Shown here one piece after another: positions 20,194 to 22,047 of a stretch of 64,000 nucleotides of DNA; positions within the stretch are counted from its first letter, which is position 1, and the number at the start of each line of letters is the position of its first letter. The notes beneath the pieces are model-generated. The model searched no databases, was not told the DNA's origin, and saw only the letters and a program-made list of their open reading frames with translations. The stretch covers positions 434,001 to 498,000 of the forward strand of contig NZ_CP113517.1 of assembly GCF_024360925.2 (NCBI RefSeq). Reading direction: 5' to 3'. Origin of the DNA: Methylomonas rapida. GTDB lineage: Bacteria > Pseudomonadota > Gammaproteobacteria > Methylococcales > Methylomonadaceae. The translations under genes and the position numbers were made by a program.

Positions 20194-20352
20194 TTGAGCA
20201 ATTGACTCATTTCAGTGGTTTAAGTCGCGTTTTAACGTGATTTGACGGTTTTTGAAGTCTAATTTCCAGTCTCCGCCGAAACCGCGGTGCTATTGTTATT
20301 GATGGCGCAAATTTGTATATTGCCCCCTCACCTTGAAAATAGGAGTACGGCT

Positions 20353-22047
20353 TTGCAAACCACCAGCAAATTTTTTATTCAATTCATCCGGCTTGCTGGA
20401 TCTTTTTGGGATTCCGAGAATAAGGCGACTATTCGCAGCTTGTCGCTGGCCCTGGTGGTTTTGACCATACTACAGATCGTCGTTTCCGTGGTGATTACGG
20501 TGTGGAGCGCGGCATTGTTCGACGCCCTCGATCAGCGCTCGATGTCTGGCCTGTTTACCCAAATCGGGCTGATCATCTTGATTTTCATCGCCAACATGGC
20601 GATCACCGCCACGCACTTGAAGGTCAAACGTCGCATACAGCTCGATTGGCGCGGCTGGCTGACCGACAAACTGATCGGACAATGGATGCACAAGGGCCGC
20701 CATTATCTGGTGACTCACATTCCTGGCAAGCACGACAACCCGGATGGACGTATCGCCGAAGACATCCGCATTTCCACCGAATACGCCATCGATCTGCTGC
20801 ATAGCCTGTTTTACAGCATTCTGTTGCTGGGTAGCTTTACCGAAATTCTCTGGAGCTTATCGGGCACGATTACGATCGATTTGGGCATTACCCAGTTTTT
20901 TCTGAAGGGGCATCTGGTCTGGCTGGCGATCATTTATGCCGCCAGTGCTTCGATATTGGGCTGGTGGATTGGCAGGCCGTTGACCAAGGCCACCGACGAG
21001 CGGCAAACGGTGGAGGCCAATTTTCGTTTTGCCCTGGTGAAGGCGCGGGAAAATTCGCAAGCCATTGCGATGATTCGCGGTGAAAGCAATGAAGTGCCGC
21101 ATTTTCATGATTTGTTCGGCGACATCGTTGCGGCCTGGCATCAGCAGACCAAGGCCTGGGAGAAAATCATGCTGTTCAGCTCCGGCTATTCGGTGTTGTC
21201 CATGGCGTTTCCCATTTTGGTGTCGGCCCCCCGGTATATTCTCGGCAGCATCAGTCTCGGTGCGTTGATGCAGTCCGCCCAATCCTTCCAGCACATGGTT
21301 TCGGCCTTGTCATGGCCCGTTGACAACATGGGCAAGGTGGCGGAATGGCGGGCGTCGGTGGAGCGGGTGCTCGGCCTGGCGAGTGCGTTGGAGCAATTGG
21401 AGCGCGAGATCAGTAAATCCGAACCCAACCGTCTGCATCTGGAAAAGAAGGCGCAATCGGTGTTGCGTTTGAACGATCTTTGCCTGTTGAGGCTGGATGG
21501 CATCGTGTGCTTGCCTTGCATCAATGAAGAAATCAAGGCGGGCGACAGAATATTGATTACCGGCAACGCATTTACCGGCAACAAATTGTTCAAAGCCATT
21601 TGCGGACTTTGGCCGTGGGGTAACGGCACGATTGAGCTTCCCGGCGAGGAAGCCATATTTTTCATGCCACCTCGACCCTATTTGCCGACCGGTACCTTGA
21701 GAATGGCCATTTGCTACCCCTACAGCGAGGATGCCTTCGGCCAGGAAGAACTGGAAAAGGCTCTGGAGCTTGCCGGTCTGAAGGGCATGATTGCGCAACT
21801 GGACGAAAGCGCGGATTGGGAAAAGAACCTGGAGCGCGAAGAACAGCAACGTCTCGGCATGGTTCGATTGTTGTTGCAAAAGCCGAAATGGATTTTGATG
21901 CAGGAAGCCTTCAGCTCGCTCGATCCTACCAGCGAGGTCGACATGATGCGATTGATCAATCAAAAACTGCCCGATTCCGCGTTGCTGACCATTACCAAGC
22001 AGCCGGCGATACAGGCGCTGCATCACCGCGAAATCAACGTTTGTTAG
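20353..22047 (+). CDS. SbmA/YddA-like ABC transporter with degenerate ATPase domain
   Basis: About 564 residues from a TTG at 20353, favoured by AGGAG at 20341 with 7-base spacing. The N-terminal half has about five or six membrane helices with FWDSENKATIRSLSLALVVL, and LDWRGWLTDKLIGQWM and RIAEDIRI as in the ABC_membrane_2 family (SbmA, YddA, eukaryotic ABCD). The C-terminal NBD fold is kept (FKAICGLWPWGNGTI is typical) but every catalytic motif is altered: Walker A is ITGNAFTGNKLF (GNK-L instead of GKS/T), the signature is NLEREEQQRL (no LSxGE), Walker B ends WILMQEAFSSLD (Q for the Asp), and the H-loop is TITKQPAIQ. The frame is intact. It may act as a non-ATPase subunit or be driven otherwise. 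Confidence 0.85.
   Translation: MQTTSKFFIQFIRLAGSFWDSENKATIRSLSLALVVLTILQIVVSVVITVWSAALFDALDQRSMSGLFTQIGLIILIFIANMAITATHLKVKRRIQLDWRGWLTDKLIGQWMHKGRHYLVTHIPGKHDNPDGRIAEDIRISTEYAIDLLHSLFYSILLLGSFTEILWSLSGTITIDLGITQFFLKGHLVWLAIIYAASASILGWWIGRPLTKATDERQTVEANFRFALVKARENSQAIAMIRGESNEVPHFHDLFGDIVAAWHQQTKAWEKIMLFSSGYSVLSMAFPILVSAPRYILGSISLGALMQSAQSFQHMVSALSWPVDNMGKVAEWRASVERVLGLASALEQLEREISKSEPNRLHLEKKAQSVLRLNDLCLLRLDGIVCLPCINEEIKAGDRILITGNAFTGNKLFKAICGLWPWGNGTIELPGEEAIFFMPPRPYLPTGTLRMAICYPYSEDAFGQEELEKALELAGLKGMIAQLDESADWEKNLEREEQQRLGMVRLLLQKPKWILMQEAFSSLDPTSEVDMMRLINQKLPDSALLTITKQPAIQALHHREINVC

Follow-up and report, generated by a model that had tools for sequence, protein, structure and literature searches.

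We think it probable that a gene of Methylomonas rapida encodes a homodimeric type IV ABC protein of the YddA/BclA branch that works independently of ATP, is likely driven by protons and has kept its nucleotide-binding domain (NBD). The gene lies within the 64,000-nucleotide stretch analysed here (contig NZ_CP113517.1, positions 434,001 to 498,000, assembly GCF_024360925.2; hereafter the window). Its ATPase motifs are lost and the replacements conserved, its relatives are under purifying selection, the clade to which it belongs has one origin and three branches without an NBD, and its genome holds no intact member of the family. From this pattern ATP independence is likely, and proton drive, judged by sequence and by analogy with SbmA, is plausible; that the protein binds no ATP, forms a homodimer and imports its substrate are points we infer from the sequence.

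The reading frame comprises 564 uninterrupted codons with a single terminal stop, and TTG at 20353 is probably the translation start; ORF calling offered a GTG at 20287 instead, which would give a product of 586 amino acids. The protein matches the Pfam model ABC_membrane_2 (PF06472) at 125.2 bits against a cut-off of 24.4, as expected for the membrane domain of the YddA/BclA type, and SbmA_BacA (PF05992) at 60.7 bits against a cut-off of 24. According to the accessible part of PMC12003926, the SbmA_BacA model also picks up YddA-type proteins, so this second match is weak evidence for SbmA membership. ABC_tran scored 13.5 on the window protein, below its cut-off of 25. Rv1819c (PDB 6tqe) was the top PDB match by sequence, with an E-value of 1.5e-64 over residues 62-562 and of 3.9e-99 with the family profile, and since this match runs to residue 562 the C-terminal part is an NBD over its full length.

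Features of the ATPase-dead half-transporter gene, in window coordinates
Feature	Coordinates	Strand	Basis or remark
ATPase-dead YddA/BclA-type half-transporter gene	20353..22047	+	TTG start, 564 aa
Transmembrane domain, residues 6-345 (ABC_membrane_2 / SbmA_BacA)	20368..21387	+	Pfam, alignment
H88 codon (TM2)	20614..20616	+	His in 378/378 full-length and 9/9 TMD-only clade rows, 0/18 sister rows
R93 codon (TM2)	20629..20631	+	Arg in 378/378 full-length and 9/9 TMD-only rows, 0/18 sister rows
TM3 stretch 136-150 (E136, R139, E143, D147, H150; single helical face)	20758..20802	+	
P322 codon	21316..21318	+	Pro in 378/378 clade rows, 0/18 sister rows
Nucleotide-binding domain, residues 370-562, catalytically degenerate	21460..22038	+	Alignment, PDB match
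Ex-Walker A, residues 404-413 GNAFTGNKLF, one residue short	21562..21591	+	Alignment
Ex-Q-loop, residues 437-446 FMPPRPYLPT, Gln to Pro	21661..21690	+	Alignment
Ex-ABC signature, residues 493-502 LEREEQQRLG	21829..21858	+	Alignment
Ex-Walker B and D-loop, residues 513-525 WILMQEAFSSLDP; Asp replaced by Gln, Glu and SLD retained	21889..21927	+	
Ex-H-loop, residues 546-551 TITKQP, His to Lys	21988..22005	+	Alignment

Alignment with intact relatives and with E. coli YddA revealed that the window protein has no catalytically competent set of NBD motifs. Walker A reads GNAFTG-NKLF, one residue fewer than the intact GASGSGKSTLF, and the signature SGGE is replaced by ERE[E/Q]. An earlier note, made from the sequence alone, had reported an open frame with degenerate ATPase motifs and typical fold segments, and the translation agrees with it, showing the strings GNAFTGNKLF, LEREEQQRLG, MQEAFSSLD, TITKQP and FKAICGLWPWG. 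Its statement that every ATPase motif is destroyed went somewhat too far: Walker A, the signature, the Walker B Asp and the H-loop are indeed replaced, but the Walker B Glu (E518) and the SLD of the D-loop are kept. The Q-loop Gln, which the note had not named, is likewise lost (FFMPPRPYLP).

These replacements recur in other genomes. In a close set made up of P0001 and the best 120 of 2387 homologues (P0001-P0121, 69-100% identical), N410 and K411 are present in 121 of 121 rows, Q517 in 120 and the Q-loop Pro in 118, and the H-loop position is K, N or R in 120. Three collections were not filtered by Walker A pattern, namely 330 listed database relatives, the 121 close rows and 80 loci from a scan of named genomes (L112-L191, the best 80 of 537 stretches encoding a relative). 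At the Walker A position, none of the 330 has a canonical P-loop (P0158 shows that pattern elsewhere in its last 260 residues) and neither does any of the 80; each of the 80 has H88, R93, H150 and P322. We also aligned 378 full-length clade rows, 351 of them distinct over residues 20-560, leaving out the fragments L013, L038, L042, L053, L058, L059 and P0133 as well as L001, a duplicate of the window protein. One Walker A residue is missing in all 324 listed full-length database proteins and all 54 genome loci among these rows, so that G404-L412 spans nine residues in 378/378 as against ten in 58/58 intact rows, and no row of the 378 is canonical; since rows were called dead or intact by their Walker A pattern, with a second degenerate lineage (lineage B) set aside by name, this contrast holds partly by definition. 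A state unique to the M. rapida strain was rejected, as the homologue, order-genome and named-genome searches all returned relatives. The replacement of the motifs is a conserved state, neither chance nor decay nor a peculiarity of one strain.

The dead proteins form a single clade. In a quick tree of the transmembrane domain (TMD) with 92 rows, 42 dead and nine TMD-only members grouped with an SH-aLRT of 100 and with no intact row among them. A more careful tree of 58 rows, from which 34 long branches and near neighbours had been dropped, again gave a single origin (support 100/99), which was recovered in 100% of 200 bootstrap trees, and placed intact proteins (L211, L215 and L220) as the sister group. 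SbmA and its orthologue L094 stood on a separate long branch in this tree, and an AU test did not reject a joint clade of SbmA with the dead proteins (p-AU 0.214); independence from SbmA was accordingly dropped as a given. L094 itself, from genome G305, is an SbmA orthologue in a Methylococcales genome, 54% identical to E. coli SbmA.

Members of the clade are found in Methylococcales, in a small number of other Gammaproteobacteria and in many Alphaproteobacteria. The best 80 of the 537 named-genome stretches come from records named Methylomonas, Methylobacter, Methylovulum, Methylicorpusculum, Methylomicrobium, Crenothrix, Methylococcaceae and Methylococcales, and some carry only the name 'uncultured proteobacterium'. 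The wider clade was found by searches with the divergent relatives L065 and L063, from which the best 120 of 2157 and of 1711 matches were taken; the listed sources are Magnetospirillum, Paramagnetospirillum, Novispirillum, Caenispirillum, Rhodospirillales and Alphaproteobacteria, with a few MAG labels from other phyla. Because all three protein sets are the best 120 of 2387, 2157 and 1711, they are a census of near relatives and not a random draw. At 1e-15, matches turned up in 204 of the 311 genomes searched within the order, a count that takes in distant intact and lineage B relatives. In even draws the clade is rare: among 369 genomes across the class it comprised the window's own protein, L063, L064 and the TMD-only L065, and among 398 genomes across the phylum, where 29 matches were inspected by motif, only the own genome and G821.

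Members lacking an NBD appear in three separate places on the tree. One group consists of L065 and P0122-P0126, the latter 374-398 residues long; a second of L092 and L093, which are uninterrupted over 407 and 395 codons and occur as additional copies in two congeneric genomes; and the third is L057, a 385-codon member in G160. Holding all TMD-only members together was rejected by an AU test (p-AU 0.001), as was holding L057 with L092 and L093 (2e-5), the latter test having been picked after the tree was viewed. L057 may itself be decaying, as it occurs in a single genome and its second coupling loop has diverged. Near the TMD-only genes the only NBD-like match of weight was an ABC ATPase gene, situated downstream of L065 at a distance of 4.8 kb; it is a separate gene with an intact P-loop, which we take to be a LivG-type subunit.

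The membrane domain of the clade bears residues of its own. Beyond the invariant H88, R93 and P322 (see the table), Q265 is found in all 378 full-length rows listed and H150 in 376, and neither occurs in any of the 18 sister rows. Among the nine TMD-only rows, H88, R93 and P322 are kept in all nine, Q265 in eight and H150 in seven; in the paralogues L092 and L093 a D replaces E143 and a Y replaces H150. By helix angles derived from the sequence, which are a poor substitute for a structure, E136, R139, E143, D147 and H150 form one stripe along TM3, with E136, E143, D147 and H150 at 146-174 degrees from the hydrophobic face. By the same measure the angle between H88 and the hydrophobic side of TM2 is only 88 degrees, so an inward orientation of this residue is not clear. 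The intact sister group already has E136, R139, E143 (13 of 18 rows, with D in 5) and D147 (17 of 18). Most of the acidic stripe is therefore no special mark of proton drive, and E143, at one point regarded as a gain of the clade, was dropped as such once the sister group was added.

For SbmA, the accessible part of PMC13316013 describes a ladder of six glutamates (E193, E203, E269, E276, E287 and E378). Alignment with SbmA and YddA places E136, E221 and E331 of the window protein opposite E193, E276 and E378, and YddA has the same three glutamates; opposite E203, E269 and E287 stand I146, a T and R232, so that only half of the ladder is present. I146 is flanked about one turn away by E143 and H150. 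This mapping is soft, because the match to E378 is absent from the larger alignment, where SbmA has a gap, and because our alignment departs at E269 from PMC13316013, which in the part available says of YddA that it lacks equivalents of E203 and E287 only. The coupling loops are 38 and 73 residues long, equal to those of intact relatives, as compared to 28 and 65 in SbmA. Together the residues and loops would fit another proton path on the same fold, though not as proof of one. The description of the gene as of the SbmA/YddA type can thus be narrowed: the protein is like YddA, BclA and Rv1819c, but it is not SbmA proper, a candidate identity that we rejected on the three of six ladder glutamates and the full-length coupling loops.

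We picture the origin of this protein as follows. The ancestor of the clade would have lost one P-loop residue and the Lys-Ser/Thr of Walker A, and on the same stem the membrane domain would have gained H88, R93, P322 and H150. The dead NBD would have been retained, probably as a dimerising scaffold or as a gate resting on the coupling helices, and transport would be driven by a substrate gradient or, more likely, by protons. By analogy with SbmA, the proton route might be formed by the ionisable TM3 stripe (E136, E143, D147 and H150) near H88 of TM2. The earlier suggestion of an ATP-independent intermediate with a vestigial NBD fits the clade-wide P-loop deletion, the purifying selection, the branches that lack an NBD and the new conserved TMD residues. 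More tentatively, the clade could be a living intermediate between primary and secondary transport in which the P-loop died first, an ion path through the TMD (H88, E143, D147 and H150) took over, and the dead NBD was long kept as a scaffold before separate lineages discarded it; the discards would then repeat what has been proposed as the step that gave rise to SbmA. Even SbmA itself may have this clade as its stem.

The word vestigial perhaps undersells the domain. In the 121 close rows (P0001 and the best 120 of 2387), mean entropy is 0.30 in the ex-motif columns versus 1.06 in the other NBD columns, and just 7 of 181 NBD segments are less variable than the ex-Walker A. The contrast is weaker in the 203 other rows (1.11 in the ex-motifs versus 1.68 in the rest), where the ex-H-loop is not special, 108 of 187 segments being lower. 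We read the pattern in the close rows as that of a folded NBD that may have acquired a new structural or regulatory duty. The low variability of the ex-Walker A would also suit a passive facilitator, a channel or a non-transporting sensor or receptor on the ABC fold, working without energy coupling and with a regulatory NBD that would bind another ligand through the re-conserved GNAF[TS]GNK loop. We consider this joint alternative unlikely, though it fares best of those weighed: the TMD gates are present and the coupling loops full length, and the members without an NBD in three branches mean that an NBD ligand is not essential everywhere.

Less probable still is that the NBD binds nucleotide in an unusual manner, for example through K411 shifted by one place, with ATP binding and little hydrolysis driving the cycle. 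A Lys stands at 411 in 322 of the 378 clade rows, the Walker B Glu is retained in 347, the D-loop is mostly kept and the signature is partly kept outside Methylococcales; the Q-loop Gln persists in 142 rows and the H-loop His in 66. Against such binding, the loop is one residue short and without the Lys-Ser/Thr pair in every row, the Walker B Asp survives in only 9, and members with no NBD exist. Given that the other motifs are partly kept outside the close rows, we infer that the P-loop was lost first and the rest lineage by lineage.

The earlier note had also raised the possibility that the protein is half of a heterodimer with an active partner encoded elsewhere. A dead subunit paired with an intact ABC half-transporter supplying a working ATP site would not be unusual in general, degenerate sites being common among heterodimeric type IV ABC exporters, and the genome does encode other ABC proteins (two weaker matches). 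Nevertheless, an ABC_membrane_2 protein was found only once in this one-contig genome, with no intact family partner, which makes pairing with an intact relative unlikely. Similarly, 22 of 25 genomes of the genus, the own genome included, have one such protein, and the extra copies in the other three are TMD-only (G180 and G163) or dead (G192, whose second copy is locus L165 as matched by contig and coordinates). With homologues standing alone at the loci examined, we regard the heterodimer as very improbable.

Selection on the gene family is purifying. Over 49 pairs the TMD has a median dN/dS of 0.018 and the NBD one of 0.057; these are the pairs with usable dS out of 1378, and they share species and are not independent. 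Decay in sister strains, which would have pointed to a pseudogene, is thus not borne out for the gene or its close relatives; one other genome, G072, holds a broken copy (L053), an NBD fragment interrupted by a TGA and lying next to part of a GH5 gene. A decaying pseudogene is not supported and has almost no chance of being right, for although there is that broken copy, 107 of the 311 genomes of the order lack a match at 1e-15 and the NBD changes at roughly three times the rate of the TMD, the frame is open, dN/dS is low among relatives, the state is conserved across a clade of old and single origin, and no order-genome match listed has an internal stop.

Among known systems, YddA, BclA and Rv1819c share with the window protein their domain order, length and coupling-loop lengths, and the sister group of the clade consists of intact members of this family; the window clade differs in a P-loop one residue short and in its replaced catalytic motifs. 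BclA is treated in the accessible part of PMC12003926 as ATP-driven and in need of ATP hydrolysis. With SbmA and BacA (SLiPT) the protein shares the TMD fold family and three aligned ladder glutamates and, if our reading is right, would likewise work without an ATPase, but it keeps a whole-length NBD and its coupling helices, and only some of its relatives are NBD-less. Heterodimeric ABC exporters with a degenerate site resemble it in their replaced Walker, signature and H-loop residues; they have an intact partner site, whereas the window genome has no intact family member. On their own, the membrane domains of MsbA and LmrA perform proton-coupled transport, as stated in the accessible part of PMC4979069, and the preferred explanation would likewise have an ABC membrane domain working without an ATPase and coupled to protons. 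LmrA-MD and MsbA-MD, however, are laboratory-cut constructs, whereas the state of the window clade is natural and conserved.

In the part available, a 2026 paper (PMC13316013) proposes that a YddA-like ABC transporter gave rise to the proton-driven SbmA once its TMD and NBD had separated; it also notes instances of YddA in which TMD and NBD are encoded by separate genes, and that part names no transporter to which a dead NBD is still joined. The strings 'degenera' and 'Magnetospirillum' are absent from the main text of PMC12003926, and our search by title and opening of the abstract, outside which most subscription literature fell, returned no description of an ATPase-dead YddA/BclA clade. The clade supplies forms with a dead NBD and, beside them, relatives sharing the fold that are either intact or NBD-less; cultured methanotrophs carry some of these, so that the conversion of a primary into a secondary pump could be assayed side by side. 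If our reading is true, many proteins whose annotation calls them ATP-binding peptide or B12 transporters use no ATP.

In the window the gene follows what we take, by sequence, to be trxA and rho and precedes a convergent gene that is presumably hemE. Among the best 80 of 537 named loci, the 68 with at least 1.8 kb upstream have rho directly upstream in only 14 cases, mostly in Methylomonas records; trxA-rho was therefore rejected as an operon partner and looks like plain synteny. An exo-beta-1,3-glucanase-like GH5 gene lies directly downstream in 50 of these 80 loci (L112-L191); of the 71 loci that extend 700 nt or more past the transporter gene, 49 have it in the same orientation, with gaps of -44 to 276 nt. 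Its product matches PF00150 at 54 bits and exo-1,3-beta-glucanases in the PDB at an E-value of 2e-55, and the printed sequences have no signal-peptide-like start. They contain NEP and GEW motifs. The GH5 gene is absent from the window and has no orthologue in the window's genome, where the best match is 28% identical, and among ten wider loci (L223-L232) it is present in a single one, from a genus relative; as a general operon partner it was rejected on these grounds. It remains a lead for part of the Methylococcales, in many of which the cytoplasmic GH5-like neighbour hints at a beta-glucoside substrate.

Some listed relatives carry the label 'vitamin B12/bleomycin/antimicrobial peptide transport system ATP-binding/permease protein', which their motifs do not support. 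Finally, lineage B (L043, L044, L045, L047-L052, L060 and L091), found in other genomes of the order, is a separate second ABC_membrane_2 lineage with a degenerate NBD. Its motifs differ from those of the window clade, with for example GPSEEAK at Walker A, Arg in place of the Walker B Glu and no H-loop, and its sister L046 is intact.
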